In this document: piece by piece, positions 4,816 through 38,821 of the stretch
Position numbering within the stretch: the stretch's first letter is position 1
Layout of the letters: every line of letters starts with the position of its first letter
Source: Nitrospirota bacterium
GTDB lineage: Bacteria; Nitrospirota; Thermodesulfovibrionia; Thermodesulfovibrionales; BMS3Bbin05
Assembly: GCA_020351835.1 (NCBI GenBank)
Contig: CP070669.1
Coordinates: forward strand, 1,033,297-1,075,390
Direction: 5' to 3'
DNA: 42,094 bases
Position numbers and translations under genes: made by a program
Notes under the pieces: generated by a model
The model's database searches: none
What the model saw: only the letters and a program-made list of their open reading frames with translations
Told to the model about the DNA's origin: nothing

Positions 4816-4861
4816 TGCGAATATCATTATAAACCTGGCAAACAGTAAAGAAAATACAAAG

Positions 4862-5683: not shown

Positions 5684-6054
5684 GGATATTAATAGCAGAA
5701 GATGACAAGAACCTCGGTTACCTTCTCAGGAACGAGCTGGAGGGTAGCAGGTATACCATTGACCTGGCAGTTGACGGTGTCGATGCCGTTCTTCAATTCA
5801 TAAGCAAGAGACATGACTTTATTGTGTTCGACATAAAGATGCCGAAACTCGATGGCATCAATGCGCTCAGGATAATCAAGAAATTGGACCCGGATGTGCC
5901 GGCTATCACGATATCGGGGAATGCCGGCCAGGGGGACATGGCGGAATCTGTCAGGGCGGGGGCGATAAGGTGCCTTACAAAACCCTTTCAGGTATCCGAT
6001 CTTAAGGAACAGATAGAAAAATATTACAGGGATGCAAATGGGAACGATAAATGA
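5680..6054 (+). CDS. Single-domain response regulator in the chemotaxis operon
   Basis: A 124-residue stand-alone receiver domain. The acidic pair is D8/D9, the phosphoacceptor is D51 (in VFDIKMPKLDG), a Ser sits in the Thr/Ser switch position (ITISG) and the conserved Lys is K101 (LTKP). It is sandwiched between cheR and cheA with 4-base overlaps on both sides, so it is likely phosphorylated by this CheA. Whether it contacts the flagellar motor, acts as a phosphate sink or controls another output cannot be told from sequence. Confidence 0.9.
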   Translation: MRILIAEDDKNLGYLLRNELEGSRYTIDLAVDGVDAVLQFISKRHDFIVFDIKMPKLDGINALRIIKKLDPDVPAITISGNAGQGDMAESVRAGAIRCLTKPFQVSDLKEQIEKYYRDANGNDK

Positions 6055-17645: not shown

Positions 17646-17658
17646 GGTATAAGCGGTA

Positions 17659-18492
17659 ATGAAAAAAGCTGTAACTATCCTGTTCTTTATCCTTTATCTG
17701 GCGGGGAACTTATATGCTGAAACACCTGAGAGGATAGTATCACTTGCTCCAAGCATAACGGAGATCCTGTACGCCCTCGGGCTCGAAGAGAATCTCGCTG
17801 CCGTGACTAACTTCTGCGATCATCCCCCGGAGGCCGTGAATAAGCCCAGAATAGGCGGGATGTCCAATCCGTCCCTTGAGGCCATCGTCCGGGCGAGGCC
17901 GGATATGGTGGTTATCACTACGGACGGCAATCCCGAGGGGATCGATGAGCGTCTGAACAAGCTGGGTCTGAATGTTTATGTGTTCAGGGCTACGAGGGTA
18001 TCAGATCTTCCGGATGCCATCAGGGAGATGGGAGTAGCTCTCGGTGTTAAAGACAGGGCCGTAGTACTTGCAGATAGTATAGAGAGCTCGATGCGGCAAT
18101 ATAAGGTATCCGGAGGCGCTACTGTCGAGAGAAAAGGCAAGGCAATATTCATAATCTGGCCCGAGCCCCTGGTGGTTGCGGGTAAAAACACGGCTGTTGA
18201 TGACGTTCTTGGCCTGCTGGGCTGGGAGAACATCGCGGCAAAGGCAGGCTCGAGATATCCTAAGTTCTCCATAGAGGAGATAGTACATGAAAGGCCAGAT
18301 GTAATTTTCATCGGAAAGATGCGTGACAATACCCATGAGCTATCAAAGCTTATACTTGATAAGTTAAATATGCTTGAAGCAGTGAAAAAAGGCAGGGTCT
18401 ATTTCACAAGTGATGCGCTATACCGTCTCGGGCCCAGGATCGTGAATGGTCTGGATGAGATCTCCGTATATCTGCAAGAGGCCATAAAATGA
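17659..18492 (+). CDS. btuF: Periplasmic vitamin B12-binding protein BtuF
   Basis: A 277-residue solute-binding protein with a signal peptide (cleaved near LYA-E, residue 20). It has the cluster-A-type fold: PERIVSLAPSITEILYALGLEENLAAVT at the start of lobe 1, the backbone helix in the middle, and lobe 2 (SIEEIVHERPDVIFIG). This N-terminal pattern is shared by BtuF and siderophore-binding proteins; the riboswitch-led operon with btuB and cob genes points to corrinoids. It overlaps btuC by 4 bases. Confidence 0.92.
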   Translation: MKKAVTILFFILYLAGNLYAETPERIVSLAPSITEILYALGLEENLAAVTNFCDHPPEAVNKPRIGGMSNPSLEAIVRARPDMVVITTDGNPEGIDERLNKLGLNVYVFRATRVSDLPDAIREMGVALGVKDRAVVLADSIESSMRQYKVSGGATVERKGKAIFIIWPEPLVVAGKNTAVDDVLGLLGWENIAAKAGSRYPKFSIEEIVHERPDVIFIGKMRDNTHELSKLILDKLNMLEAVKKGRVYFTSDALYRLGPRIVNGLDEISVYLQEAIK

Positions 18493-19454
18493 GGAACATC
18501 ACATTAATAGTTATTGTCTCTGTTGCGGTCATACTGGCATCTGTACTTATAGGGCCTAAGATCATATCTCCTTTTTCAATAGATGACATATCCAAACAGG
18601 TTATCGTAGCTATAAGGCTGCCGCGTGTGATAGTCGCACTTTTGATGGGATGTGCTCTGGGAGCGTCAGGTGCCGTACTGCAGGGGATATTGAGAAACCC
18701 TCTTGCAGACCCTTATATACTGGGCATCTCAAGCGGTGCAGCCCTTGTTGCAGTGATGGGGATACTTTTAGGAAGTACGGCACTGGGCCTGTTAACGGTC
18801 CCCGTTTTTGCATTTGTCGGGGCCATAGTTACAGGTCTTCTTGTCGGGGCAATGGGCTATAAGAAGGGAGGTCTGTTGCCCGAGAGATTACTGCTTGCCG
18901 GTGTAGGGCTAGGCTTTCTTTTCTCTGCAGTTCTTATGATGATACTAAGCGTGTCGACGGACGAAGGGCTCCGACGTGCAGTGCTCTGGGTATATGGCGA
19001 TCTGTCCATGGCAGACTGGTCGCTTATCCCATACGGGCTGTTCTTTATTATTGTGGGGCTCACTATTTCTCTTCTCAGGGCTAAGGGGCTGAATGCACTG
19101 ATGCTCGGTGATGATATTGCATACAGTCTCGGATTTTCACCCGACAGCGAGAGGGCACTGCTATTCGTATCAGTAGGTTTGATGACCGCATCGGCAGTTT
19201 CATTGGGAGGGATAGTCGGCTTCGTAGGTCTGCTTGTGCCTCATATCGTAAGGTTTATAGCAGGTTCTGACGGTAGGGTGCTCATCCCGCTTTCTGCTTT
19301 AATGGGTGGAACACTATTGTGCTTTGCGGATACGGTGGGAAGGACTGTGATGGCACCTATGGAACTTCCATCGGGGATAATAACGGCAATAATAGGTGCT
19401 CCGTACTTTCTCTATCTTCTGAGGAAAAAGGATGTGCTGGGGGAGAGAAAATGA
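18489..19454 (+). CDS. btuC: Vitamin B12 ABC transporter permease BtuC
   Basis: A 321-residue FecCD-family permease with about ten membrane segments. The signatures RLPRVIVALLMGCALGASGAVLQGILRNPLADPYILGISSGAALVAV and GGIVGFVGLLVPHIVRF are present (the latter contacts the ATPase), as is GRTVMAPMELPSGIITAIIGAPYFLYLL near the end. It works as a dimer with BtuD and receives corrinoid from BtuF. It overlaps both neighbours by 4 bases. Confidence 0.94.
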   Translation: MRNITLIVIVSVAVILASVLIGPKIISPFSIDDISKQVIVAIRLPRVIVALLMGCALGASGAVLQGILRNPLADPYILGISSGAALVAVMGILLGSTALGLLTVPVFAFVGAIVTGLLVGAMGYKKGGLLPERLLLAGVGLGFLFSAVLMMILSVSTDEGLRRAVLWVYGDLSMADWSLIPYGLFFIIVGLTISLLRAKGLNALMLGDDIAYSLGFSPDSERALLFVSVGLMTASAVSLGGIVGFVGLLVPHIVRFIAGSDGRVLIPLSALMGGTLLCFADTVGRTVMAPMELPSGIITAIIGAPYFLYLLRKKDVLGERK

Positions 19455-20206
19455 AGGAACCCGGGGGCATACTGAAGGTGTCGGATATATCTTTCTCTTA
19501 CGGGAACGGTAAGGCAGTGAATGATCTTAACATGTCGGTAGAGGGCGGTACTTTTACAGCTGTTATCGGCGCAAACGGATCGGGCAAGTCCACTATATTG
19601 AAACTTGCCGCAGGTATACTTAAGCCGGCATCCGGATCAATAGAACTTTGGGGTCAGCCGCTTGAAAGCTATAAAGGAAGGGACAGAGCAAAACTTATAA
19701 GTTATCTCCCGCAATTGCTGGATATCAATGTGCCGTTCAAGGTCAGAGAGCTGATCAATATGGGCCTGTACCCGTATGACATCAGGCCCGAAATGACAAC
19801 TGAACTGGCGATGTCAATGGTGGGGCTTGATGGTAAGTCTGAATCTGTTATATCTGAGCTGAGCGGGGGAGAGCGTAGGCGTGTGTTCATCGCAATGACG
19901 CTGCTACAGGGTGCCGGTATACTTTTATTAGATGAACCTCTTGCTAACCTTGATATACAGTTCCAGATAGAGTTCATAAAGCTTCTTGAGGAACTAAGGT
20001 CAAAGAGGTCAATATCCGTAGTTATGGCACTGCACGACATTAATATGGCGTTTCACTTCGATAAACTTATTGTAATAAGGAACGGTGAGGTGATCGCTTC
20101 CGGTGATCCAAGGTCTACAATTACATCAGAAATGATACTGGAGGCATTCGGCGTGAAAGTGAAGATCTATCATCAGGATGATGGCACTATATCGTTCGGG
20201 TACTGA
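19451..20206 (+). CDS. btuD: Vitamin B12 ABC transporter ATPase BtuD
   Basis: The ATG at 19451 overlaps the btuC stop (ATGA) and has GGGGGAGAG upstream; the longer open frame from 19319 only shadows btuC. The 251-residue ATPase has Walker A GANGSGKST, Q-loop SYLPQ, ABC signature LSGGERRR, Walker B ILLLDEPLANLD and H-loop LHDIN. It belongs to the FepC/BtuD class that pairs with FecCD permeases, and powers corrinoid import across the inner membrane. Confidence 0.94.
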   Translation: MKEPGGILKVSDISFSYGNGKAVNDLNMSVEGGTFTAVIGANGSGKSTILKLAAGILKPASGSIELWGQPLESYKGRDRAKLISYLPQLLDINVPFKVRELINMGLYPYDIRPEMTTELAMSMVGLDGKSESVISELSGGERRRVFIAMTLLQGAGILLLDEPLANLDIQFQIEFIKLLEELRSKRSISVVMALHDINMAFHFDKLIVIRNGEVIASGDPRSTITSEMILEAFGVKVKIYHQDDGTISFGY

Positions 20207-20921
20207 TTTGGATACTTTGAGCTCAGAGGGCAGAAACAGGCCGATGAGGGCTTATGCAAGCATACTGATATCGGTCTTTATACATGCTATGATCATAGCG
20301 CTGCTTGTTTCGTTCAGCTCGCTCAAGGGAAGTGATGATCTAGGTGCGATCAGCGTGTTCATTTCGGCAGTCCAGGAAAAGGGAGGACTGCGTGCCGGGC
20401 CGACAAAAAATAAACAGGTGCAAAAGCCGGAGCCTTTGAAAGATAAGAAAGTTGATAGAGAGGAAATAAAAGGACCTGCTGTTCAAATTGAAGAGGCAAT
20501 GGGCAGGGAAGAGATAAAAGGGGCCCACTTAATAGATATTGCCGGACCCGATGGTCCCGGAGATACAGGGAGCGATCCCGTTCCTGATAGCGAGCAGTAT
20601 GATAGTGACAAGTACGACGGTGATATATATATTGGTGGATTTGGGATGCAGGATGGCCCGAGATTCGATGTCAGGGTGAGGCCTTCATATCCTTTGTTCG
20701 CGAGGAAGACAGGGAAGGAGGGAAGAGTAGTGCTTAACCTCTATATCGATGAGAGCGGGGAGCTGGTTGATGTCAGGGTGATAGAAGGCGCAGGTAACGG
20801 CTTTGATGACTCAGCGTTAAAAGCGGTGAAGATGTCTACATATCTGCCTGCTCGAAAGAACGGAAGGCCTGTGCGTTCGAGAACAAATCTTCCGATAAGA
20901 TTTGTTCTGACGGAACTCTGA
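20178..20921 (+). CDS. tonB: TonB-family energy transducer
   Basis: Up to 247 residues. One N-terminal membrane helix (ASILISVFIHAMIIALLVSF) precedes a charged, Pro/Lys/Glu-containing periplasmic linker and a C-terminal TonB domain (about 165-247: VRPSYPLFARKTGKEGRVVL, DESGELVDVRVIEGAGNGFDDSALKAVKMSTYLPA). The start is uncertain. The ATG at 20178 overlaps btuD by 29 bases, while a TTG at 20208 just after the btuD stop and an ATG at 20244 are plausible; none has a good ribosome binding site. It probably energises the BtuB encoded in the same operon. No exbB or exbD is nearby, so the motor must be encoded elsewhere. Confidence 0.9.
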   Translation: MMALYRSGTDLDTLSSEGRNRPMRAYASILISVFIHAMIIALLVSFSSLKGSDDLGAISVFISAVQEKGGLRAGPTKNKQVQKPEPLKDKKVDREEIKGPAVQIEEAMGREEIKGAHLIDIAGPDGPGDTGSDPVPDSEQYDSDKYDGDIYIGGFGMQDGPRFDVRVRPSYPLFARKTGKEGRVVLNLYIDESGELVDVRVIEGAGNGFDDSALKAVKMSTYLPARKNGRPVRSRTNLPIRFVLTEL

Positions 20922-20934
20922 ATAAGAGAACATT

Positions 20935-21219
20935 ATGAACGGTGAAAGTGCAGTAAAGAGCATTTCAAAAAGAAAGGGTTCACATCAGTTCTTCGAGAAC
21001 AGGGACTGCGAATACTACCCTTGCCATGATTCAGGTCTTCAGCAGATCAACTGCCTGTTCTGTTTCTGCCCGATGTACTATGCGATATGTCTCGGTGAGC
21101 CTGAATATATGATCGTGGGAGGATCAACTATAAAGGATTGCTCTTCATGTGACTATCCGCACAAGCCGGAGAATTATAAGATGATGCTCGAATATCTGAC
21201 ATTGGTACTGAAGGATTAG
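20935..21219 (+). CDS. Cysteine-rich small domain protein of cobalamin operons
   Basis: A 94-residue protein with eight Cys, including DCEYYPCH, NCLFCFCP, YYAICLG and DCSSCDYPHKPENYK. This arrangement is that of the cysteine-rich small domain (Pfam 04071), a putative metal-binding module found almost only with cobamide synthesis genes. It lies between tonB and cobU, three bases before the latter. Its biochemical role is not established; possibilities include a metal- or corrinoid-handling accessory protein. Confidence 0.8.
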   Translation: MNGESAVKSISKRKGSHQFFENRDCEYYPCHDSGLQQINCLFCFCPMYYAICLGEPEYMIVGGSTIKDCSSCDYPHKPENYKMMLEYLTLVLKD

Positions 21220-21222
21220 AAG

Positions 21223-21753
21223 ATGGCCGATATAATATTTGTTACAGGTGGGGCAAAAAGCGGTAAAAGCTCGTATGCGATAACCGAAGCCGAAACTATA
21301 GGCCGTAAGCCGGTATATATAGCCACAGCCGAGCCTCTTGATGACGAGATGAAGGATAGAATAGACATCCACCGGAAAGAAAGGGGTTCGCACTGGACGA
21401 CGATAGAAGAAGCTATAGACCTGGAAGGTGCATTGTCAGAACTGAATAGCAGATATGATGTGGCAGTGATCGATTGCATAACCCTGTGGCTGTCTAATCT
21501 TTTGTGCAGGAGGAATGACGGTGATAAGGCCGACCTTTATGCGTCTGTTAGTGGTATGCTCGGCAGATTAAAAGATGCAGATATAGACATGACGCTCTAT
21601 ATAGTATCTAATGAAGTAGGCATGGGGATCGTACCTGAAAATGCACTGGCCCGCGAGTTCAGGGACCTGTCCGGCAAGGTAAATCGGATGATAGCAGACA
21701 TTGCGGACCATGTTGTCCTGATCGTAAGCGGCATGCCATTGAAGATAAAATAA
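21223..21753 (+). CDS. cobU: Adenosylcobinamide kinase/adenosylcobinamide-phosphate guanylyltransferase CobU
   Basis: A 176-residue bifunctional enzyme. The P-loop is [12 protein letters not shown], followed by the family block [24 protein letters not shown] (containing the His that accepts GMP), then [15 protein letters not shown] and [23 protein letters not shown]. It phosphorylates AdoCbi and activates it to AdoCbi-GDP, the first step of nucleotide-loop assembly. Length is standard. It is tightly packed with the Cys-rich gene and cobT. Confidence 0.95.
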
Positions 21754-21769
21754 GTTAATAGATGGAGGC

Positions 21770-22831
21770 ATGGAAGTGGAACTTAAAGATATGGTCGGAA
21801 ATATCAAGCCTGTGGATGGTTCATACATCGAAATCGCTCAGCGACGGCTAGATAATCTCACGAAACCGCGGGACAGTCTTGGAAGACTTGAAGAGTTCGC
21901 AAAAAGGCTGGTAGCTATCTATAAGAACGAGATGCCCGACATGCCCAAAAAAGCTGTCTTCACGTTTGCCGGAGATCATGGAGTTGCTGATGAAGGTGTA
22001 AGTGCCTTTCCTGCGGAGGTCACTCCGCAGATGGTTCTTAACTTTGTTAACGGTGGGGCCGGTATCAATGTGCTTGCCGGTCATGCTGGTGCAGATGTTT
22101 TGGTAGTGGATATCGGTGTAAATTATAATTTTGAGGATATGAAAGGGCTCATAAGGAGAAAGGTCGTAAAGGGCACGGGCAATATAGCAAAAGGCCCTGC
22201 TATGACCAGAGGTCAGGCAGAAGATTGCGTAAATGTCGGGATCGGTCTTGCCAGAGAGTATTCGGGAAAAGGATATATGATGTTTGCTACCGGCGAGATG
22301 GGGATAGCTAATACTACCCCTTCATCCGCTATAGTGTCGGTTGTTACAGGGATAGAAGTTGCGGCAGTTACCGGAAGAGGAACAGGTATAGATGATGATG
22401 CTTTCAGGAACAAGGTCCGTGTGATAGAAGAGGCGATCGAGCTAAACAGACCCGATAGAATGGACGGTTTAAACATACTGTCCAAGATAGGAGGCGCGGA
22501 GATAGGAGGTATTGCCGGGCTGTGCCTGGGAGCAGCTGAACAGGGCATACCGGTAGTGGTTGACGGGTTCATATCTACAGCAGGGGCATTAATAGCTTAC
22601 CTGATGGAACCGGCAGTATCAGATTATATGTTCCCCGCTCATAATTCTGTAGAGGTAGGTCATAGGGCGATGCTCGAGCATATGAACTTAAGGCCGATAC
22701 TGGATCTTGACCTGAGGCTTGGGGAGGGGACAGGAGCGGCGCTGGCGATGACAATCCTTGATGCAAGCCTTAAGGTATACAGAGAGATGGCGACTTTCGG
22801 TGAGGCAGGAGTGTCCGAAGAGGGAGCATGA
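21770..22831 (+). CDS. cobT: Nicotinate-nucleotide:dimethylbenzimidazole phosphoribosyltransferase CobT
   Basis: A 353-residue enzyme activating the lower-ligand base. Family blocks seen are [71 protein letters not shown] and [16 protein letters not shown], with the C-terminal block EPLL-like region replaced by [14 protein letters not shown] as usual. The ATG at 21770 is only two bases after GGAGG; a GTG at 21776 has better spacing, so the true start may be there. It overlaps cobS by 4 bases. Confidence 0.95.
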
Positions 22832-28081: not shown

Positions 28082-28966
28082 CTACTTGTCGTTGTCCTGT
28101 TTGACCCTTAGCGGTGGTGCGTTCTCATCCTTATCTATGCCCTGGTATAAGGTCAAATGCGGAAACGGTATCTCTATGTCCAGTTCATCGAACTTCTTTT
28201 TCATTCGCCTGTTGAACTCCCTTCCGACCTTCCACTGGTCTCCAGGTTTGGTCTGTATGCGTGCTTTGATTATAACGGCTGAATCGGCAAACTTATCCAC
28301 CCCGAGTATCTCTAAGGGTTCAACAATGCTCGCGCCGAACGCAGGGTCGCCTGCCAGATCAGTGCCGATATCGGAGAGAACCTGTGTTACTTCATCTGTG
28401 TCCTCACGGTATGCGACCCCGACCTCGAAAACATAACGGGAATAACCTTTGGTCATATTTGTCACAATATCAATATTGCCGTTCCTTATGTAATGAACAT
28501 TGCCGGCAAGGTCCCTGAGAATGGTCATCCTGAGCGTGACCTTTTCGACGACACCGCTCTTTCCGGCGATCTCGACCACGTCATTAACCCTTATCTGGTC
28601 CTCAAGGAAAATGAAGAAACCGCTGATGATATCCTCTACCAGGCGTCGGGCACCGAAGCCGATCGCAAGTCCCGCAACCCCCGCTCCGGCAAGGATCGGC
28701 TTAATATCTATGCCCAGTTGCCTTAATACCATCATAGTGGCGATAAGTATGACCGTGATATTTATGGCGTATTTCAATAAGGATTTGAGAGTGCGAGCCT
28801 TTTTCTCATATTCAACATCATTCTTTCTGTTAATAATGACCTGAAAGACCCTTCTGATCATGAAGTTCACGGTCTTTGCGAATATGATCGCTAGAACAAT
28901 GATGATCAGTGCTTTGAGACCATCGGACTTCATCCATTCTAATGCCTGTGCCAGTGTGTTATTCAT
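28082..28966 (-). CDS. MscS-family mechanosensitive channel
   Basis: About 294 residues from the ATG at 28966, which overlaps the end of the upstream LapA-like gene (ATGAATAA); an ATG at 28978 is also possible. Three N-terminal helices lead to the pore helix GAGVAGLAIGFGARRLVEDIISGFFIFLEDQ, which has the Gly/Ala packing of MscS TM3, and the beta domain DVVEIAGKSGVVEKVTLRMTILRDLAGNVHYIRNG. It would open under membrane tension and release solutes in osmotic downshock. Length is close to E. coli MscS (286). Confidence 0.92.
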   Translation of the reverse strand: MNNTLAQALEWMKSDGLKALIIIVLAIIFAKTVNFMIRRVFQVIINRKNDVEYEKKARTLKSLLKYAINITVILIATMMVLRQLGIDIKPILAGAGVAGLAIGFGARRLVEDIISGFFIFLEDQIRVNDVVEIAGKSGVVEKVTLRMTILRDLAGNVHYIRNGNIDIVTNMTKGYSRYVFEVGVAYREDTDEVTQVLSDIGTDLAGDPAFGASIVEPLEILGVDKFADSAVIIKARIQTKPGDQWKVGREFNRRMKKKFDELDIEIPFPHLTLYQGIDKDENAPPLRVKQDNDK

Positions 28967-29231
28967 TTCCACTTTCATTCCTTGGAGTATCGGTCTGTCC
29001 TTTTCTTCTTCCGAATATCTCCCACCCGACAAGTATGCCGATAACACAGCCTACAGATAAGGATCCAAACAGAAGTACAGTTCTTGACATCGTTACCTTC
29101 CAGAACAGAAAACGTATATCGACATCAGCGGAGTTCTGTAACAGAAACAGCAGAAATAAAATGAAGATCACTAATGCAGTGATGGTCTTCCCGCTCACCG
29201 AGCCGCGGTTAGATGACATAGTTCTTTTCAT
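28959..29231 (-). CDS. LapA-domain (DUF1049) inner-membrane protein
   Basis: A 90-residue protein with two membrane helices (about 17-31 and 51-70). The LapA-like core LVIFILFLLFLLQNSADVDIRFLFWKVTMSRTVLLFGSLSVGCVIGILVGW shows a hydrophobic helix, Gln-Asn, an FLFW strand and a second helix. Family members take part in lipopolysaccharide assembly in Enterobacteria; elsewhere the role is unknown. GGAGGA seven bases before the ATG at 29231 decides the start. It overlaps the mscS start, so the two are probably co-translated. A TATAAT on the minus strand (29280-29275) may be the -10. Confidence 0.82.
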   Translation of the reverse strand: MKRTMSSNRGSVSGKTITALVIFILFLLFLLQNSADVDIRFLFWKVTMSRTVLLFGSLSVGCVIGILVGWEIFGRRKGQTDTPRNESGNE

Positions 29232-29379: not shown

Positions 29380-31329
29380 TCAGTTCATATGAGCCTTTTT
29401 GTGTTCTGTAGATGCTCTGATTACGTTTGAATATGCTATTCTTTGCTCGGATGCTTTCAATATCTCTCTAAGCATCTGTCCATATGAAAGACCTTCCATT
29501 GCTGCCATTTTTGCAAGATGGCCGTCCCAGCACCAGCCCGGGTTAGGGTTGACCTCCAATAATCTGGGTGTATTGTTCCGGTCCATTCTCCAGTCAAATC
29601 TTGCGTAATCCCTGCATTCGAGCCGCTCGAACAATCTTAAACAGCTGGCTATCATAAAATGCTTAGTGTCCTCCGGCAGATCGGCTTGAACGGATCGCAC
29701 CTGCCAGTAAGGAGAAGCAGGCAGCCACTTTGCCTCATAACCGCATATCTTGGGAAGATCCGCCGGTAACATTGAATAATCTTCTTCAATAATAGGCAAT
29801 ACCTTATAAGACCCCGGAGGATTCCCGATTATCCCTAAGGTCATATCTTTACCTGTAAGAAACTGCTCGACGAGGATCGGTTTGTTGTAACCGAACTTGT
29901 CCCTGGCATTGGTTATGGCGTTCTCTAATGCTTCAATATCGTTACATACATTGTCTTTCGTTATGCCGAAGCTCGAGTCACCAAAATTCGGTTTTACGAT
30001 TACAGGGAAATCTATGAGCAGCTCTATAAAAGTTGTATCGTCCGGTTTTATAAGAAATGCCTTTGGAACGGGAATGTCCATTTCTTTAGCAACTCCCCTT
30101 ATCAGCGATTTGTCATAGCAATATGAAAGACACTGAGGTGTTCCTCCCGAGTAGTTGATCTTCAGGACCTCAAGGATTGCGGGTACATGCAGTTCCTTTG
30201 AAGCATCATTAAAAAAACCTTCATCACAGAGATTGAGTGCGAGATCTATCCTGTCCTTTGACCGGCGAAGATCGTCGATCAGATTTTCATGTCTGTCCAT
30301 ATATATAAAGTTATAGCCCTCAATGCGTGAAAGCTCTTTTTTCAGCTCGTTTATGGTGTGATGATCATCATCATCGAAAGAAGCTTCCGGTTTCACGATA
30401 TCCATGCGTCTCGGGTCTCCCATAAGGACTGCAATGGTCTTGATCGTTCCCTTTTGTTTTAATGCTGACCTTTCCTTTTTTGCTATTGCTGATATAACTA
30501 TTCTTTTGGCCATCATACCGAGGTCCTGGTTCCTTTTAGACCTTGTGAATATTTCAGTGTGAGACGTGATATCCGAAAGATCAGCGCGGAAAAGAAGGTT
30601 CCCCAGGGTTTCGAAAGAATAAAGTCTCTCTGCATAGAACTGATCTGATATTATGCCTTTTTTTACATGAGTAATAACCTCTCTGGATATTAAGCGGTCC
30701 TTATGTTTTGAAAGGGACCTTTCCCTGCAAACAAAGTATTTGTTGTCTATCCACTCCCAGCTTCTTGGTTCGAAGTTCTGTTTGAGATAAGGCCCGTCCG
30801 ATACGTCTATCAAGAGTTTGCCCCATGGCATCAGAACACGGCGTATCTCTTTAAGCACTTGGAGGTCATCATGCAGGGACTCAAAGTATCCAAAACTATT
30901 GCCAAGAAGCATTACAAAATCAAAGGTGTCATCTGGGAATGGGAGTTTCCTGGCATCACCTTCTTTGAACATGACCCTGTGACCGTTCTTTTTTGCAGTT
31001 GCCCTTGCCTTTGTTACTAAGTAATGAGAACGGTCGAGGCCTGTAACATTGATGAAGCCTCTTTTGGCCAGCTCCAATGAATGACGACCCTGACCGCAGC
31101 AAAGATCCAGCACAGAGCTGTTCTTTTCTATGCCCATTATGCTGATAAATCTATCCATCTCGTCTTTCGTTATGACCTCGTCCTGTACAACGTCACCATC
31201 CGTCCTGAGGTAATTGGCATTAAATATGTGCTTCCACCAGTCTGCCCTTACATAGCTCTCAAGGTCTTCTACCGGGCCGAGTATTTCATTTATCCCTTTC
31301 TTTTGATCTCGATTCTTTCCTGATATCAA
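29380..31329 (-). CDS. Methyltransferase / D-Ala-D-Ala-ligase-like ATP-grasp fusion
   Basis: About 649 residues. The first ATG (31368) lies inside a hairpin and lacks a ribosome binding site, whereas AAGGAG at 31343-31338 is 8 bases before a TTG at 31329, which I prefer. The N-terminal part (about 30-255) is a class I SAM methyltransferase: motif I VLDLCCGQGRHSLELAKRG, then EGDARKLPFPDDTFDFVMLLG. The C-terminal part (about 290-640) is ATP-grasp: FPVIVKPNFGDSSFGI (ATP lysine and loop), ILVEQFLTGKDMTLGIIGN and metal-binding LLEVNPNPGWCWDGHL. Likely role: ligating an amino acid or peptide and methylating substrate or product. Substrate unknown. Confidence 0.85.
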   Translation of the reverse strand: MISGKNRDQKKGINEILGPVEDLESYVRADWWKHIFNANYLRTDGDVVQDEVITKDEMDRFISIMGIEKNSSVLDLCCGQGRHSLELAKRGFINVTGLDRSHYLVTKARATAKKNGHRVMFKEGDARKLPFPDDTFDFVMLLGNSFGYFESLHDDLQVLKEIRRVLMPWGKLLIDVSDGPYLKQNFEPRSWEWIDNKYFVCRERSLSKHKDRLISREVITHVKKGIISDQFYAERLYSFETLGNLLFRADLSDITSHTEIFTRSKRNQDLGMMAKRIVISAIAKKERSALKQKGTIKTIAVLMGDPRRMDIVKPEASFDDDDHHTINELKKELSRIEGYNFIYMDRHENLIDDLRRSKDRIDLALNLCDEGFFNDASKELHVPAILEVLKINYSGGTPQCLSYCYDKSLIRGVAKEMDIPVPKAFLIKPDDTTFIELLIDFPVIVKPNFGDSSFGITKDNVCNDIEALENAITNARDKFGYNKPILVEQFLTGKDMTLGIIGNPPGSYKVLPIIEEDYSMLPADLPKICGYEAKWLPASPYWQVRSVQADLPEDTKHFMIASCLRLFERLECRDYARFDWRMDRNNTPRLLEVNPNPGWCWDGHLAKMAAMEGLSYGQMLREILKASEQRIAYSNVIRASTEHKKAHMN

Positions 31330-31331
31330 AA

Positions 31332-31382
31332 TGCTTTCTCCTTTTCTTAATAAATTGGGAGAAAGCAAGAGTGCTTTCTCCC
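31332..31382 (-). promoter_or_regulatory. Three-armed RNA switch or attenuator before the ATP-grasp fusion
   Basis: On the minus strand, arm A GGGAGAAAGCA (31382-31372), arm B TGCTTTCTCCC (31367-31357) and arm C GGAGAAAGCA (31341-31332) occur in order. A:B is a perfect 11-bp hairpin with a 4-base CTCT loop, followed by AATTTATT, and could partly terminate the upstream transcript. B:C is a perfect 10-bp alternative that would hide the AAGGAG ribosome binding site of the fusion gene. The two pairings exclude each other. Confidence 0.6.
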
Positions 31383-31409: not shown

Positions 31410-31688
31410 TTACTGCCTGTCCTGTTCCTGCATTTCTTCTTCGCGCATTTCCTCGCCCTGCGTTTCTTCTTCGCGCATCTCTTCTTCGCGCATTTCTTCG
31501 CCCTGCATTTCCTCTTCGCGCATTTCTTCGCCCTGTGTTTCCTCATCTCGCATTTCTTCTTCCTTGTCATGACTTGAAGCGTAGAGGGTGACGTTAGCTT
31601 CTGATCCACTAGCATATGCTATGGAAAACATTCCGGCTAAAAGAACCGAAACAAGAAGCAATGAGAACATCAGTGTCAATTTTTTCAT
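31410..31688 (-). CDS. Exported acidic Glu/Met repeat protein
   Basis: 92 residues from the ATG at 31688, chosen because AAAGGAGG lies about 10 bases upstream; the ATG at 31715 would place that site inside the gene. A signal peptide (1-26, ending IAYA) is followed by a short linker and then about 45 residues built almost only of Glu, Met, Arg and Gln in units such as GEEMREEEMQ and GEEMREEETQ. The mature protein is strongly acidic and Met-rich, probably helical or disordered. Metal binding or chaperone-like shielding is conceivable but unproven. It lies downstream of the Lys-rich gene and a sigma-54 promoter. Family not recognised. Confidence 0.7.
   Translation of the reverse strand: MKKLTLMFSLLLVSVLLAGMFSIAYASGSEANVTLYASSHDKEEEMRDEETQGEEMREEEMQGEEMREEEMREEETQGEEMREEEMQEQDRQ
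31429..31560 (-). repeat. In-frame tandem repeat in the acidic protein gene
   Basis: Units encoding (G)EEMREEE followed by MQ or TQ recur about four times with a partial unit, with closely similar codons. The DNA repeat is young enough that another frame also stays open over it. Confidence 0.75.
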
Positions 31689-31743
31689 GATGGTATTTCC
31701 TCCTTTGATTTTCATTTACCTCTCAATCATCTAACAACTGCAA

Positions 31744-31872: not shown

Positions 31873-32179
31873 TTCATCTCCGGTTGTAAATAATCCTTTT
31901 TTTATAATGGTTTATTAATGTTGCTTAAAAACCCAATTGTGTATTTCAAGGATCGTGCCAGACAAATTGGCGCAATAAATATTATTAAATATCAGCATGT
32001 TAGGCCGGTGACAGTATATCCTTTCCCTGCGAACGCAACGTTATAGGCGGCAAAATCTGCCAATATGGCATAATATCTTTAATATTGACAAATAAAGCGC
32101 CAATATGGCATTTTTTTGGTAAAGTGTGGAGCATTATTATGTTGTTTGAATGTCATTTTGACGCATAAGGAAAGATAAT
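31873..32179. promoter_or_regulatory. Divergent regulatory region with paired palindromes
   Basis: This 307-base gene-free stretch separates the minus-strand small genes from the sigma-54 activator gene. It holds the sigma-54 promoter (31945-31960) and two copies of the palindrome (T/C)GCCAATATGGCA, at 32058-32070 and 32098-32110, centred 40 bases apart, close to four helical turns. Such paired same-face sites are typical of enhancer-binding-protein or repressor sites. A TTGACA at 32085-32090 lies between them, but its -10 is poor. AAGGA at 32168-32172 serves the activator gene. Confidence 0.55.
31945..31960 (-). promoter_or_regulatory. Sigma-54 promoter for the minus-strand small genes
   Basis: The minus strand reads TGGCACGATCCTTGAA, matching TGGCACG-N4-TTGCW at all fixed positions except that the -12 GC is GA. 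Start of transcription would be near 31934, about 62 bases before the Lys-rich gene. The adjacent divergent gene encodes a sigma-54 activator. Confidence 0.55.
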
Positions 32180-33550
32180 ATGTCTTTAAATATTCTGGTA
32201 GTCCCTGTAGGAAATAGCGATCATTGGCCTGAAGTAATTAAATACCTTGGCCGCGAAAATGGCATGGAACTGCATGTCATATATAAGGTTAGTGAAGTAT
32301 ATAATGCTCTCGATGAACATTCGATAAACATAGTAATTGCAGAGTACAGCATTCCCAGGATCAATACAAACCAATTTATCAAGAGAGTGAAGAAGCAGAG
32401 ACCGTCAGTCGAGATAATCCTGCTGTCTGATACAGTGCAGCTTTCAAAAGCTATCGAAGCTATGAAGGCGGGGGCATATGATATATATGAGTTTCCGGTA
32501 GATATGAAGCTTCTGCTGACTATAATAGGTAAAGCTGTTGAAAAGCAGTCTCTATATCTTGACAGGGAGAAACTCAAAGAAAAGGTCGAAGGCCAGTTCG
32601 ACCTGAACAATATAGTAGGCAGAAGTAAATCAATACAACACGTTATTAATATTGCCAGGACCGTTGCCAAGAAGAATGCCAGTGTGCTTATAACGGGTGA
32701 AACTGGAACAGGGAAAGAAATGATAGCTGAGTTCATTCATAATAACAGTTTTCGTTCCGGCAAGCCATTTGTTGCGGTCAATTGTGGTGCCTTTAATGAG
32801 GGTGTTCTGGAGTCCGAGTTGTTCGGTCATGAAAAAGGAGCATTTACCGGAGCTATAGCTTCGAGAGTAGGAAGGTTCGAACTTGCGAATGGTGGGACTA
32901 TATTCCTTGATGAAATAGGAGACCTGACCCATAGTACACAGATAAGACTTTTAAGGGTGCTCCAGGAAAGGCGTTTCGAACGTGTAGGAGGCAATAATAA
33001 TATCGTTACAGATGCAAGGATAATCGCTGCCACCAACAGGGATCTCAGGCTTTTAATAGAAGAGGGCAAATTCAGGGAAGACCTTTATTACAGGCTCAAC
33101 GTGGTGCATATAAGTGTGCCTCCATTAAGGGGAAGAAAGGAAGATATTCCTCTGCTGGTAAGCCACTTTATAAATAAGTTCAATGAGCGGGAGGAGTACG
33201 GTATCGAAGGGATCGCTAGCGGAGCGATGCAACTCCTAATGGATTACAGCTGGCCGGGAAATGTACGGGAGCTTGAGAATACTATCGAATCGGCAATGGC
33301 AATGTCTCAAAGCGAAGTGATAGAAGAAAAATACCTGCCTTCGTTTCTGCATATTACCCCGCCCGAGGAGAAGAAGTTCTACCGTATCTCGAGTAGTCTT
33401 ACCATGAAGCAGGTAGAAGATGAGATCATAAGGCTAACGCTTGAAAAAACTTCGGGTAATAAGACAAAGGCGGCCCGTTTGCTTGGTATAGGACTCAGGA
33501 CGATGCAAAGGAAGACAGGTGGTTATAATAAGCCCAAGGATAGCATTTAA
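32180..33550 (+). CDS. Sigma-54-dependent transcriptional activator with degenerate receiver
   Basis: 456 residues in NtrC-like order. The N-terminal receiver (1-120) has lost its acidic pair (P9/V10 in ILVVPVG), has Glu instead of the phosphoacceptor Asp (E55 in IAEYSIP) and Phe at the Lys position (F105). The AAA+ domain (about 142-380) is intact: Walker A GETGTGKE (173-180), the sigma-54 contact loop GAFTGA (220-225), Walker B IFLDEIG with D244/E245, and the R-finger region. A Fis-type HTH closes the protein (NKTKAARLLGIGLRTMQRK). It should therefore be active without phosphorylation or be controlled otherwise. It overlaps the kinase-like gene by one base. Confidence 0.93.
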   Translation: MSLNILVVPVGNSDHWPEVIKYLGRENGMELHVIYKVSEVYNALDEHSINIVIAEYSIPRINTNQFIKRVKKQRPSVEIILLSDTVQLSKAIEAMKAGAYDIYEFPVDMKLLLTIIGKAVEKQSLYLDREKLKEKVEGQFDLNNIVGRSKSIQHVINIARTVAKKNASVLITGETGTGKEMIAEFIHNNSFRSGKPFVAVNCGAFNEGVLESELFGHEKGAFTGAIASRVGRFELANGGTIFLDEIGDLTHSTQIRLLRVLQERRFERVGGNNNIVTDARIIAATNRDLRLLIEEGKFREDLYYRLNVVHISVPPLRGRKEDIPLLVSHFINKFNEREEYGIEGIASGAMQLLMDYSWPGNVRELENTIESAMAMSQSEVIEEKYLPSFLHITPPEEKKFYRISSSLTMKQVEDEIIRLTLEKTSGNKTKAARLLGIGLRTMQRKTGGYNKPKDSI

Positions 33551-34278
33551 TGGAAAGAAATAATGTTCGCATTGAGTCCTTTGACCTTGAGGTAGGAAGG
33601 ACGATAGCCAGGAAGTACAGGGTCGTTTCAAAGCTTGGTTCCGGATGGGAGGGTGAGGTATATAAGATCGAGGAGATCAAGACCGGCATAGAAAGAGCTG
33701 CCAAGCTTTTCTTCCCGCACAGGAACATCGGAGGAAGGACGTCAAAGCTTTATGCAAAGAAGCTGCACAAATTGCGCCATTGTCCGATCCTTATCCACTA
33801 CCATACGGAAGAAACTATAACTTTCAGGCGAAACCCGATAACAGTCCTCATATCCGAGTACGTAGAGGGAAGGATATTGTCCGATTTCATTAACGGCTTA
33901 AAGGGTAAAAGGCTCATGCCATTTGAGGCGACTCATCTTCTATATGTGCTAAGCTCTGGGATGGAAGCGATTCACCTGGCAAATGAATACCATGGGGATC
34001 TGCACCTCGATAATATAATAGTTCGTCGCTATGGACTGGCATTTGATCTCAAGCTGCTTGACCTTTATCATCACGGGGCAACGAGAGCGGAAAACAAACA
34101 GGACGATATTTGCGATGTCATTCGTATTTACTATGATGCGCTCGGGGGGAGCAAGCACTACTCGAAACACCCGGCCGCCGTCAAATACATTTGCAGCGGG
34201 CTTAAGCGCTCTCTTATCCTTTCCAAGTTCAGGACGATGTCAGCTCTCAGGACCCATCTTGAGAAGATGGAGTGGTAG
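33550..34278 (+). CDS. Small protein kinase-like protein
   Basis: A 242-residue compact kinase fold. The Gly-rich loop LGSGWEGEVYKI (29-40), ATP lysine K52 (AAKLF), catalytic loop HGDLHLDNIIV (D150, N155) and metal Asp D171 (LLDLYHHG in place of DFG) are present. The HGDLHxxN form is shared by lipopolysaccharide-kinase-like, ABC1/RIO-like and some Ser/Thr kinases, so the substrate could be protein or small molecule. The C-lobe is short. Translation is coupled to the sigma-54 activator by a TAATG overlap, and the activator's receiver cannot be normally phosphorylated, so kinase control of the activator is possible. Inference only. Confidence 0.8.
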   Translation: MERNNVRIESFDLEVGRTIARKYRVVSKLGSGWEGEVYKIEEIKTGIERAAKLFFPHRNIGGRTSKLYAKKLHKLRHCPILIHYHTEETITFRRNPITVLISEYVEGRILSDFINGLKGKRLMPFEATHLLYVLSSGMEAIHLANEYHGDLHLDNIIVRRYGLAFDLKLLDLYHHGATRAENKQDDICDVIRIYYDALGGSKHYSKHPAAVKYICSGLKRSLILSKFRTMSALRTHLEKMEW

Positions 34279-34369: not shown

Positions 34370-36520
34370 ATGAAGATCGCTGTCGTATATAACAGGGAAA
34401 GTAAGAAGGTCATAAACCTGTTCGGGGTGCCTAACAGAGAGAAGTACGGCCTTAAGTCCATTCAGCGGATAACCGATGCCCTGAAAAAGGGGGGGCATCA
34501 TGTAATTGCCCTTGAAGGCGACAAGGACCTTGTCGATAAACTCGAAGAGTTTATGCCCAGGGTCGTCAAAGGGGAACGGCCCGGAATGGTCTTTAACCTG
34601 TCGTACGGTATACAGGGACAGGCACGTTATACCCATGTCCCGGGGATTCTTGAGATGCTTGGCATCCCCTATGTGGGTTCAGGACCTTTAGCGCATTCGC
34701 TTTCGCTCGATAAGGTGGTCGCAAAGGTAATATTCAAACAGAACGGTCTTCCTACGCCGGACTTCGCTGTTCTGCAGAACAGAGAGTACGAGATCCCGGA
34801 CCTAGAGTTTCCTCTGATAGTTAAACCAAAGAATGAGGCAGTTTCTATGGGTATCAAAGTGGTAAATAATGAAGACGAGCTCCGGGAGGCTGCAGGATCT
34901 ATCTTCGAACTATTTCGCCAGCCCGTACTGGTAGAGCAGTATATTGAGGGCCGTGAAATAAATGTAGGTTTGTTGGGGAACGACCCGCCGGAGGTCTTTG
35001 CCCCGGCAGAGATATTATTTGGCACAAGCGGGCCGAAGATCTATACGGTCGAAGACAAAAAGAGGCAGTCCGGAAGGGAGATAGGTGTGCAGTGCCCTGC
35101 CGATCTTACTCCTGAAGTTACAGTAAGGGCACAGGAGATAGCCCGGCGGTCATTTGAGGTCCTTGAGTGTTTTGATTGTGCGAGAGTTGATATGCGGCTG
35201 GATGAGGATGGTAATTTCTATATACTGGAGATCAACAGTCTTCCAAGTCTCGGGGAACATGGTTCGTATGTTGAGGCTGCCCGCTATATGGGGATGGACT
35301 TTCCGGCCCTGGTTAACCGTCTTGTTGATGTAGCAAGCGCGCGATATTTCGGGACTCATGAACCGGCCTCACTGCAGCCCGAGAAAAAGGACCCCAGGTC
35401 CACCATCTACAACTATCTGGTAGAAAGGAGGGATCACCTTGAGAAAAGGGTTCAGACATGGTCTACTCTATCAAGCAGGACCGAGGACCCTGTTGGTATC
35501 CAGATGGCGGTTAGCAAGCTCCGGGCAGCTATGCAAGATCTGGGATTGAAGGAAGCCGGGGTGATCAGCGATGTTCCTCATGTACACGGATGGGAGACCA
35601 AGGCAGGCCTCGAGAACGGAACACTACTTGTGTTTCACCTGGATGTGCCACTTAATCCTGTTCTGTCTGCTGAGCCTTTCCGTATCGACCCAGAGTGGAT
35701 ATATGGCGAGGGTGTGGGGGTATCACGGGCACCTCTGATATCAATGATCCATGCGCTTCAGGCGCTTCGACATATACGGGTCCTCGGAAAGATACCACTC
35801 GGAGTACTGGCCTATTGTGATGAAGGAACGGATTGCCGCTTCAGTGCTGAAACAATAAAGCACGCAGCATCATTGTCAAAACGGGTTCTTGTCTTGAGGC
35901 CCGGCAATATAGGCGACCGGATAGTAACGCAAAGGAGAGGCCAGAGAAAGTACAGAGTAGTCATTGAGGGCCGGCCAAGAAGGCTCGGTCAGATAACAAA
36001 GAATCCCGAGGTATTAAGCTGGGTTTTAGACCGTCTGAATGAAGTGACAAAGCTTACTTCGAGAAAGAACCGCATTGCCGTATCCCCTGTGGATATAAAG
36101 ACAGACGCTTTCCCATTGCTCCTTCCTCACAGGGTCACAGTTACGATCACTTTATCGTATCTCGATCATAAGCTTGCAGATGAGGCCGAAAGCAAGATGA
36201 AGGAGATATTGAAGAGGAGGGGGCTATCTATTGCTTTTACTCTTATTTCTGACAGGCCCCCGATGAAAGAGAAAAGGACAAACGCTCCTTTAGCCAGAAA
36301 GCTTATTAATCTGGCTGAGAGCTGGGAGATCCCGATGGAGCCTGAATCATCCTTGTGGCCGTCGGTTGCAGGTCTGGTGCCTTATTCGGTCCCTGTGGTA
36401 TGCGGTGTAGGGCCCGTCGCAAAAGACCTTTATACATCTAAAGAAGCCGCAGACAGAATAAGCCTGCTTCAACGAACGATCCTGCTTTCCCAGTTCTTAT
36501 ATAACACTATCGATGAGTGA
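34370..36520 (+). CDS. D-Ala-D-Ala-ligase-like ATP-grasp fused to a degenerate M20 peptidase-like domain
   Basis: 716 residues. Residues 1-325 are a Ddl-like ATP-grasp: FPLIVKPKNEAVSMGI (K152), VLVEQYIEGREINVGLLGN (E189) and ILEINSLPSLGEHGSY (E287, N289). Residues about 345-716 follow the M20 carboxypeptidase order: FHLDVPL, FRID-PEWIYGEGVGVSRAPL, LGVLAYCDEGTD, YRVVIEGRPRRLG and a C-terminal GVGPVAKDLYTSKEAADRI. Of the metal site, H423 and D425 remain, but the bridging Asp is V451, the DEE pair is DEG (G486), and the dimer-domain His is Arg. The second half is therefore probably a substrate-binding or inactive domain. It overlaps the next gene by 8 bases. Confidence 0.85.
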   Translation: MKIAVVYNRESKKVINLFGVPNREKYGLKSIQRITDALKKGGHHVIALEGDKDLVDKLEEFMPRVVKGERPGMVFNLSYGIQGQARYTHVPGILEMLGIPYVGSGPLAHSLSLDKVVAKVIFKQNGLPTPDFAVLQNREYEIPDLEFPLIVKPKNEAVSMGIKVVNNEDELREAAGSIFELFRQPVLVEQYIEGREINVGLLGNDPPEVFAPAEILFGTSGPKIYTVEDKKRQSGREIGVQCPADLTPEVTVRAQEIARRSFEVLECFDCARVDMRLDEDGNFYILEINSLPSLGEHGSYVEAARYMGMDFPALVNRLVDVASARYFGTHEPASLQPEKKDPRSTIYNYLVERRDHLEKRVQTWSTLSSRTEDPVGIQMAVSKLRAAMQDLGLKEAGVISDVPHVHGWETKAGLENGTLLVFHLDVPLNPVLSAEPFRIDPEWIYGEGVGVSRAPLISMIHALQALRHIRVLGKIPLGVLAYCDEGTDCRFSAETIKHAASLSKRVLVLRPGNIGDRIVTQRRGQRKYRVVIEGRPRRLGQITKNPEVLSWVLDRLNEVTKLTSRKNRIAVSPVDIKTDAFPLLLPHRVTVTITLSYLDHKLADEAESKMKEILKRRGLSIAFTLISDRPPMKEKRTNAPLARKLINLAESWEIPMEPESSLWPSVAGLVPYSVPVVCGVGPVAKDLYTSKEAADRISLLQRTILLSQFLYNTIDE

Positions 36521-38132
36521 AAAAAAGAATAAGCTGCCCCGGAACAAAGAGACAGATCAGCTGGATCTGGGCAGCAGAAAGATCGCAAGACCTCAACGCT
36601 TTTCTGTTTCAAGCGATGGCATGGTCTCAACTCAGCATTATCTGGCTACCGACGCCGCGGTAAAAGTACTTCATGCAGGAGGAAATGCAATGGATGCTGC
36701 CGTTTCCGCTGCGTTTGCATTAGGTGTATGCGAACCGGCCGCATCAGGGTTGGGTGGCCAGACGATGATAATGTATTATCATGCCGAGTCAGGCAAGAAG
36801 ATAGCGCTTGACGGTTCATCCAGGGCACCTCACCGGGTAGAGCCAGGAGAACTTACAAAGAAAGGATACCTGAGAGGGCATATTGCGTCCACCGTCCCGA
36901 GCACTCCTGCAGTGCTCGCTTATGCTCTCGAACATTATGGGTCAATGAAACTAAGTGATGTGATGCTGCCCGCCATTATGCTTGCTGAGGAAGGATATCA
37001 GATATCGCAACTTCAGCATGATCTTACAAAGAGAGAAATTAAGAAGTTAAAGAAGAGGAGTGCCGGACAGTTCTTTCTCAGAAATGGTGAACGGCCCTAT
37101 CCGGTAGGTTCAACATTTCGTCAACCGGTGCTTGCCAAAACACTTATGAGGATCGCTGATCAGGGAGTAGAGGAGTTTTACCATGGAGAGATCGCCAGAA
37201 CTATCCATAAGGACATGGTCGATAACGATGGCCTTATCAGAGATGATGACCTGGCGCAGATACCCTGGCCTATCGAAAGGAAACCGCTTTCAACAAGGTT
37301 CATGAACAACAGGGTGCTGACACTGGGCCCTCCGGGGGCCGGTAGAACATTGATCGAGGCCATGAACATTATAGAGGCGATGCCGGAGAAGTTCATCGAC
37401 CTTGATACCCCACGGGGCGCGGTGGCATTTGTTGAGATCGTTCGTCGTGCCAACCTTGACCGGTCGGACAGACCCTTCGAGCCGAACCTGTATCCCCAGC
37501 TTCCGGTCAAGCAGATGCTGAGCCAGGAATATGCCAGGAAGATAGGAAGAAAGGTACGCATGAAGATCAAGCGAGGCGGGGATACTACCCATCTTTCTGT
37601 TATAGACAGGGAGGGCAATATGGTGGCCCTGACGCAATCGATAGAGAGAGTATATGGATCATGCGAGGCCTCTTCAGAACTTGGCTTCCTTTATAACAAT
37701 TATATGAGTGCCTTTGAATACGAGGATATGACCCATCCGTATTATATGAGACCTAATGCTGTCCCCTGGGCAAGTGTAGCCCCTACTTTTGTCTTCCGCG
37801 GGCGCTGGCCCTGGATATCTATAGGTTCGCCGGGCAGCGAACGTATAGTATCGGCCATCATCCAGGTATTGTTAAGAATGAAAAAAGAGTCACCATTCGA
37901 TGCAGTGGACGCACCGAGAATGCATTGCTCTATAGATGGTAAGGTCTCTCTGGAAGCAACACGGATGAGAAGTGACATTCCAAAGACATTGAGCAAATTC
38001 GGGTTTGAGGTGGATAGAAGAGACCCGTATTCTTTCTATCTCGGATGCGTTCAACTCGTCCTTAACGGAAAACGGGGCCGTCTGATCGGAGTGGCCGATC
38101 CACGCAGGGACGGAGCTGCCGGCGGGCCGTAA
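36513..38132 (+). CDS. Gamma-glutamyltranspeptidase-family hydrolase without signal peptide
   Basis: A 539-residue Ntn-hydrolase. The N-terminal block STQHYLATDAAVKVLHAGGNAMDAAVSAAFALGVCEPAASGLGGQ, the Arg of LDGSSRAPH, the autocleavage site GGDTTHLSVID (nucleophile T358) and GSPGSERIVSAIIQVL are all present, so self-processing into two subunits is expected. Unlike most bacterial GGTs it has a charged N-terminus with no signal peptide, so it should act in the cytoplasm. The gene overlaps the ATP-grasp fusion (ATGAGTGA) and the amidohydrolase gene, suggesting it transfers or removes gamma-glutamyl groups in the same pathway. Confidence 0.92.
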   Translation: MSEKKNKLPRNKETDQLDLGSRKIARPQRFSVSSDGMVSTQHYLATDAAVKVLHAGGNAMDAAVSAAFALGVCEPAASGLGGQTMIMYYHAESGKKIALDGSSRAPHRVEPGELTKKGYLRGHIASTVPSTPAVLAYALEHYGSMKLSDVMLPAIMLAEEGYQISQLQHDLTKREIKKLKKRSAGQFFLRNGERPYPVGSTFRQPVLAKTLMRIADQGVEEFYHGEIARTIHKDMVDNDGLIRDDDLAQIPWPIERKPLSTRFMNNRVLTLGPPGAGRTLIEAMNIIEAMPEKFIDLDTPRGAVAFVEIVRRANLDRSDRPFEPNLYPQLPVKQMLSQEYARKIGRKVRMKIKRGGDTTHLSVIDREGNMVALTQSIERVYGSCEASSELGFLYNNYMSAFEYEDMTHPYYMRPNAVPWASVAPTFVFRGRWPWISIGSPGSERIVSAIIQVLLRMKKESPFDAVDAPRMHCSIDGKVSLEATRMRSDIPKTLSKFGFEVDRRDPYSFYLGCVQLVLNGKRGRLIGVADPRRDGAAGGP

Positions 38133-38821
38133 TGTCTAATCTTCCGTTGCTCATCTCTGTTCCCCATGCCGGAACGGTTATCCCTGAAGAGGTCAAGGAC
38201 ATATGCATTCTTAGCGAACAGGATATCACTGCGGATGGTGATGAGGGGGCAAGGGAGATATATGATATAGAGGACCTGGTAGAAGCGTATGTGACGACTG
38301 ATGTCCCAAGGGCAATAGTAGACGTTAATAGAGGCCCGGATGATATGAGAGATGATGGCGTTATAAAGAAGGTCACTATCTGGAATAAACCTGTTTACTC
38401 GATGCAGCCTGATCGTAATCTTATCAGTTCCATGATAGAAAGGTATTATATGCCTTATCATCAGAAGCTGACGGCGCTATCCGGGCGAGATATCATTCTT
38501 GGAATAGACTGTCATACGATGGTTGCGGAAGCACCGCCGATCGATAAAGAGCCTGGTAAAGAGCGTCCGGACATCTGCCTGGGAAGTGGAGACGGCGCCT
38601 GCCCGGAAGAGATACTTCAAATCATAAAAGATGCCTTGGAGGAAGCATTTGGAAGGCAGGTGGCGATAAATGATCCTTTTGGAGGCGGGTATATTATTCG
38701 ATCACATTCATCAGAACTGCCCTGGGTACAGTTAGAGATCGCGCGCAGAGACTTTATGGATTTTGAGAAAAAAAGGGAATGTGTATCGAATGCTTTCATA
38801 GAGATCTGTTCCGTGCTTTAA
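38132..38821 (+). CDS. N-formylglutamate amidohydrolase-family enzyme
   Basis: A 229-residue protein of the FGase family (Zn-dependent, related to carboxypeptidase A folds). LLISVPHAGTVIPEE at the N-terminus, ITADGDEGAREIYD, VDVNRGPDD, DCHTMVAEAPP and DPFGGGYIIRSHSSELPWVQLEIARRDFM are the conserved blocks, including the His/Glu metal ligands. No histidine-degradation genes are nearby, so the substrate is probably not N-formylglutamate from the hut pathway but another acyl-glutamate or amide. It shares one base with the end of the GGT gene and ends the operon. Confidence 0.88.
   Translation: MSNLPLLISVPHAGTVIPEEVKDICILSEQDITADGDEGAREIYDIEDLVEAYVTTDVPRAIVDVNRGPDDMRDDGVIKKVTIWNKPVYSMQPDRNLISSMIERYYMPYHQKLTALSGRDIILGIDCHTMVAEAPPIDKEPGKERPDICLGSGDGACPEEILQIIKDALEEAFGRQVAINDPFGGGYIIRSHSSELPWVQLEIARRDFMDFEKKRECVSNAFIEICSVL

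Follow-up and report, generated by a model that had tools for sequence, protein, structure and literature searches.

What does a protein do that joins an ATP-grasp ligase to an M20 peptidase-like domain lacking metal ligands? The window analysed here (the whole stretch of 42,094 nucleotides from a Nitrospirota bacterium) encodes such a protein in an open reading frame with an ATG start and a plausible ribosome-binding site upstream, and the coordinates and length given for it in an earlier note proved correct. The product is probably an ATP-dependent peptide-bond-making enzyme carrying a peptidase domain stripped of its metal-binding residues. The features on which the argument draws, in window coordinates, are:

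28082-29047, minus strand: MscS-type mechanosensitive channel gene
32180-33550, plus strand: sigma-54 response regulator, possible operon start
33550-34278, plus strand: small protein-kinase-fold protein, 242 aa, directly upstream of the fusion
34370-36520, plus strand: ATP-grasp/pseudo-M20 fusion, 716 aa
34370-35350, plus strand: D-Ala-D-Ala-ligase-type ATP-grasp domain, residues 1-327 (Pfam, fold search, alignment)
35402-36517, plus strand: carboxypeptidase-G2-like M20 domain without a metal site, residues 345-716 (profile, fold, alignment)
36513-38132, plus strand: GGT-like Ntn hydrolase, 539 aa, its start overlapping the end of the fusion gene by 8 bases
38132-38821, plus strand: N-formylglutamate-amidohydrolase family (FGase) protein, 229 aa, its start overlapping the GGT stop codon

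The earlier note had described the C-terminal half as an M20 domain of the carboxypeptidase G2 (CPG2) type. For the single sequence the M20 match is weak: it scores 16.3 bits with Pfam, under the cut-off of 24.6, and phmmer aligns it to CPG2 (E = 5e-7) over residues 357-541, half the domain. A profile built from 14 M20 domains reached CPG2 (1cg2) with E = 5.5e-21 and DapE with about 1e-5. The AlphaFold2 model of the isolated domain (pLDDT 90.7, pTM 0.89) is complete, including the lid/dimerisation subdomain, and a Foldseek search with it against the PDB returned CPG2 as best match (E 4.5e-27, TM 0.77/0.74), followed by other M20-type enzymes. With the whole-protein model (pLDDT 84), CPG2 was again the top match (1.2e-25) and D-Ala-D-Ala ligase (Ddl) the second. 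Family profile and fold together rule out a chance likeness, and on the predicted structure the C-terminal fold is M20, as had been proposed. CPG2 (PDB 1cg2/6xj5), best by both profile and fold, shares its fold with the entire 372-residue domain, although in the fusion D141, E176, E200 and the C-terminal His of CPG2 are replaced and the domain sits behind an ATP-grasp ligase.

Relatives were collected by one scan of GTDB contigs, then by searches through the phyla of the first matches. The first full-length fusions came from metagenome-assembled genomes (MAGs) of Nitrospinota (L004), Deltaproteobacteria (L005), Polyangiaceae (L006) and Bacteroidetes (L007), and the phylum searches added L014, L018, L019, L020, L022, L031, L032, L041 and L042 as well as a broken copy, L043. 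The intact full-length copies, 14 from several phyla, are equal in length and mostly have the same partner genes; identity is about 57-60% for the main clade and 32-35% for the other. ATP-grasp and M20 domains show the same deep split, with L014 and the Bacteroidetes sequences on one side and the rest on the other, as expected of a single old fusion; the deepest branch within or beside the main clade is L042. Decay of the fusion gene, with the peptidase tail of a ligase drifting towards a pseudogene, is exceedingly improbable: L043 (L046:7719-13467) would fit this, since both its ends are missing and a transposase-like ORF follows immediately, but the conserved open frames and the intact copies across phyla refute it. 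Beyond the transposase-like ORF of L046, the GGT and FGase frames are still open.

To place the metal positions, residues were mapped onto CPG2 by alignment, with the residue numbers and ligand roles of CPG2, and the 14 full-length fusions were compared. H112, D114 and E175 of CPG2 correspond to H423, D425 and E485 of the fusion, whereas the bridging D141 is V451, E176 is G486 and the dimer-domain H229 is R538. All three replacements (Val for the bridging Asp, DEG for DEE, Arg for the dimer-domain His) had been named in the earlier note; to these we add two more ligands: R510 stands at the position of E200, and Y688 at that of the C-terminal metal His when aligned via the intact M20 of L005 (inspection of L042 finds His here). 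The bridging Asp is present in none of the 14 fusions (V, T, G, S, E, K, M or I instead), and neither is the second-metal Glu, E176 (G, S, F, I or A). The E200 position is Arg in 10 of the fusions and otherwise Ser, Thr or His, and the H229 position is Arg in nine. Retention of His423, Asp425 and Glu485, as noted before, holds for the window protein; among the relatives Asp425 is kept in 13 of 14 and Glu485, the catalytic Glu equivalent, in 10, but His423 in six only. L005 also encodes, downstream, an intact M20 in which every compared site carries the expected residue (Asp at the E200 position).

A full dinuclear metal site was thus found in none of the aligned fusions, and by these residues no copy is predicted to be able to form the standard one. 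A lone mutation of one copy is ruled out, the site being gone in all 14; as read from the alignment, its loss is old and inherited. Together with the M20 fold, this supports the original proposal that the ligase is linked to an inactive peptidase domain; neither of the two outcomes named in the earlier note as refuting it (a fold unlike M20, or homologs with a full dinuclear site) occurred. Could the domain nevertheless be catalytic, using Glu485 and Asp425 with the new Arg residues, for example in metal-free or single-metal acyl transfer? Such a role would account for Glu485 and Asp425 (and, in the six copies, His423) surviving the loss of the metal ligands; we consider it quite improbable, as known M20 chemistry depends on metal, four or more ligand positions have changed and the other clade lacks Glu485.

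The emptied pocket has not drifted freely in the main clade. D425, E485, G486, R510 and R538 are invariant in all eight members tested, and the pocket positions with two neighbours on either side have a conservation of 0.78 against 0.64 expected (P about 0.0004). The same test on all 12 sequences gives P about 0.013, and without neighbours the eight pocket positions give P = 0.02 in the main clade and P = 0.15 in all 12. The pocket conservation test is clear in the main clade only, where the vacated pocket is, judging by these residues, conserved in a new form. The pocket residues of the Bacteroidetes/L014 clade differ again, so that one binding mode is not universal. These observations bear on a less likely alternative, in which the dead M20 domain serves structure or regulation, by dimerising the protein or by tuning the ligase in response to a ligand, and does not hold the ligated substrate. 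A modelled domain complete with its lid/dimerisation subdomain would suit this role, as would the faster divergence of the M20 part (mean conservation 0.51, against 0.71 for the ATP-grasp part) and the unlike pocket chemistry of the two clades, yet pure scaffolding predicts otherwise than what the main clade shows, where the old active site ranks with the better-conserved parts of the domain.

The ligase half has a conserved core. Its ATP-grasp domain matches Pfam Dala_Dala_lig_C at 2.5e-42, and K115, K152, E189, E196, R272, D274, E287 and N289 are invariant in 12 fusions and align with the ATP/Mg residues known for the Ddl family. In fold and in its ATP/Mg catalytic residues the ATP-grasp domain agrees with Ddl (PDB 8evz, 2dln), but the EREVS/EHEVS D-Ala-binding motif is absent from its N-terminal region, where the aligned stretch reads INLFGxPNxEKY, and among the NCBIfam Ddl models listed all fall below cut-off. 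The same genome has a separate ddl (G000:C1:924149-924928) between murB-like and ftsQ/ftsA-like genes, identified by eye from sequence; a cell-wall Ddl role for the fusion is rejected as improbable, since the genome has its own ddl within this mur/fts cluster. The protein is assembled from M20 and Ddl folds and should be classed as neither active enzyme, because the one half lacks the metal site and the other the D-Ala motif.

Eight matches in the Myxococcota phylum (L023-L030) cover the ATP-grasp part only. Two were inspected closely, and neither is an ancestor with an intact M20 domain: L030 has ATP-grasps in tandem, and in L023 the ATP-grasp is fused to a 7TM_transglut domain. L023 is the closest relative of the ATP-grasp domain outside the fusions (36% identical). 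Its 7TM_transglut membrane domain (L023:511-2508) has the usual catalytic positions changed (Arg, Asp and Asn lost), and the gene adjoins one for an S51-family peptidase.

Partner genes may point to the kind of substrate. The order fusion, GGT-like, FGase recurs in every main-clade locus that extends far enough, nine of nine when two outlying members are set aside (the window, L004, L005, L006, L034, L035, L036, L037 and L046); in L044 the contig breaks off after the GGT start. GGT-like genes also occur in the outlying loci L033 and L045, the latter having two, and no FGase was seen there. The window GGT-like protein keeps the nucleophile Thr358, within a motif that reads TTH in 12 cassette copies and TSH in one distant, non-adjacent copy. 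It scores 328 bits, under the TIGR00066 cut-off of 358, and the equivalents of E. coli R114 and D433, positions that in the E. coli enzyme bind the alpha-amino and alpha-carboxylate groups of the gamma-glutamyl moiety, are changed (GSSRAP for FREMAP, NYMSA for NQMDD), as they are in cassette proteins generally. 'GGT-like' is therefore the safe name, and the cassette proteins may not be gamma-glutamyl enzymes. No obvious signal peptide was seen in them by eye. Elsewhere in the genome (G000:C1:427828-431365) an intact M20 peptidase is encoded on the same strand as a second GGT gene, at a distance of about 1.2 kb. Among ORFs of at least 90 aa, no conserved small ORF was seen beside the fusions that could be a graspetide precursor.

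The Bacteroidetes loci differ. A class-I glutamine amidotransferase precedes the fusion in L038 and L040, and downstream of the fusion L040 has GNAT, nitrilase-family, MscS, RimK, Zn_protease and aspartoacylase-like genes; none of these partners adjoins the fusion in L039. L035, in the main clade, has two more Ddl-like ATP-grasps and a GNAT.

Such neighbours recall the synthesis of N-acetylglutaminylglutamine amide (NAGGN), in which a GNAT/ligase and an asparagine-synthase-like amidotransferase are encoded with a glutamyl aminopeptidase in one operon (PMC8070244). As there, genes of non-ribosomal dipeptide synthesis would stand beside those for a peptidase and an enzyme that uses glutamine (PMC8070244), although in the fusion the peptidase domain is fused and dead, and the Ntn enzyme is GGT-like. 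A NAGGN-like osmolyte pathway would combine a ligase with an Ntn hydrolase or amidotransferase that amidates by means of glutamine, and with hydrolases for turnover; it is a proposal about the product and fits either role of the M20 domain. The GNAT genes of L040 and L035 and the amidotransferases of L038 and L040 agree with it, the main-clade GGT-like protein is also an Ntn hydrolase, and MscS-type genes lie near the fusion in four loci (the window, L034, L038 and L040). We regard the pathway as improbable: the window cassette has neither a GNAT fused to its ATP-grasp nor an AsnO-type (asparagine-synthase-like) amidotransferase, nor any GNAT gene, and the GNAT link is confined to two loci. 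More broadly, MscS and the likeness to NAGGN synthesis and to the Rlo system (below) suggest a weak link to osmotic stress, against which stands that MscS genes are common and occur here in four loci only.

The fusion gene begins about 90 bases past the kinase-fold gene, nothing similar to which lies beside the other fusions examined, and a sigma-54-like site at 31945-31960 (minus strand) is at chance level only. Divergent from the cassette, 29380-31368 (minus strand) encodes a methyltransferase fused to another Ddl-like ATP-grasp, which is about 25-30% identical to the lone L035 ATP-grasps and the L030 tandem ATP-grasp. A small, probably secreted protein at 31410-31715 (minus strand) has a Glu-Glu-Met-rich repeat arising from 15/30/45-base tandem repeats, with Lys/Cys-rich repeats in an overlapping frame and a strong terminator-like stem after the gene at 31383-31356. 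The chemotaxis cluster at 1946-9124 (MCP, CheA, CheB) is ordinary, as is the TonB-receptor/FecCD/phosphoribosyltransferase region at 15621-22831, which resembles cobamide uptake and use.

Within its own phylum the fusion occurs in one of 396 genomes and within its own class in one of 231, the window genome both times, and it is absent from a congener of the host. It is found in five of 24 genomes in the phylum of L004 (one copy a contig-end fragment) and in three of 198 in the order of L007. This sporadic distribution suggests horizontal transfer. No relative was found in viral contigs, and viral carriage is unsupported. In the literature searched for ATP-grasp with M20, FGase or GGT, no account of the fusion or its cassette was found; the amidoligase survey that Iyer and others published in 2009 lay outside the search and may mention them.

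How might the parts work together? The substrates of the CPG2 and FGase families are N-acyl-glutamates, the GGT family acts at gamma-glutamyl bonds, and because all three handle glutamyl or acyl-glutamate bonds we infer a glutamate-bearing substrate. The reading we favour, held at slightly less than even confidence, is that of an active peptide ligase whose dead M20 domain binds this substrate and whose partner hydrolases process the product. The ATP-grasp domain, given its invariant catalytic residues, would phosphorylate a carboxylate and couple it to an amine. The M20 exopeptidase, by sequence and predicted fold anciently inactivated, would have had its emptied metal pocket refitted with Arg beside the kept Asp and Glu, the Arg now supplying the charge once provided by the metals. 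The pocket may then grip the substrate at one end and present it to the ligase; the likeliest substrate would be a short peptide or an acyl-amino acid that carries glutamate. The GGT-like and FGase proteins, to judge from gene order, would trim, transfer or recycle the glutamyl or acyl product, which could be a small glutamate-containing peptide for stress or osmotic adaptation. A role for the M20 domain as substrate binder or ligase tuner, as first proposed, is compatible with main-clade pocket conservation above that of the rest of the domain and with the conserved glutamate-related partner genes. The fuller picture is more tentative: possibly, horizontal transfer has scattered a system for peptide biosynthesis whose ligase uses the dead M20 domain as its substrate-holding arm, with Arg replacing metals, and whose GGT-like and FGase proteins process a glutamate-containing product.

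A parallel exists in the Rlo system of Pseudomonas, which comprises the retropepsin RloA, the inactive transglutaminase-7TM protein RloB and the ATP-grasp RloC (PMC12239564). There too an ATP-grasp protein is paired with a dead peptidase-like domain, although that of Rlo is transglutaminase-like and membrane bound, while the domain of the fusion is M20 and apparently soluble. The 7TM_transglut fusion of L023, with its related ATP-grasp, is a further point of likeness to Rlo.

Here an amide-breaking hydrolase fold has lost its metals and has apparently been recruited toward amide making. With its GGT-like/FGase cassette, the fusion points to an uncharacterised small-peptide pathway, whose function we propose from the genes. 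The cassette is compact, conserved across large distances and missing from nearly all sampled relatives of the host, so that its product could be sought by expressing the three genes. A soluble pseudo-exopeptidase would join the dead transglutaminase of Rlo among ATP-grasp systems, which hints at a general design.
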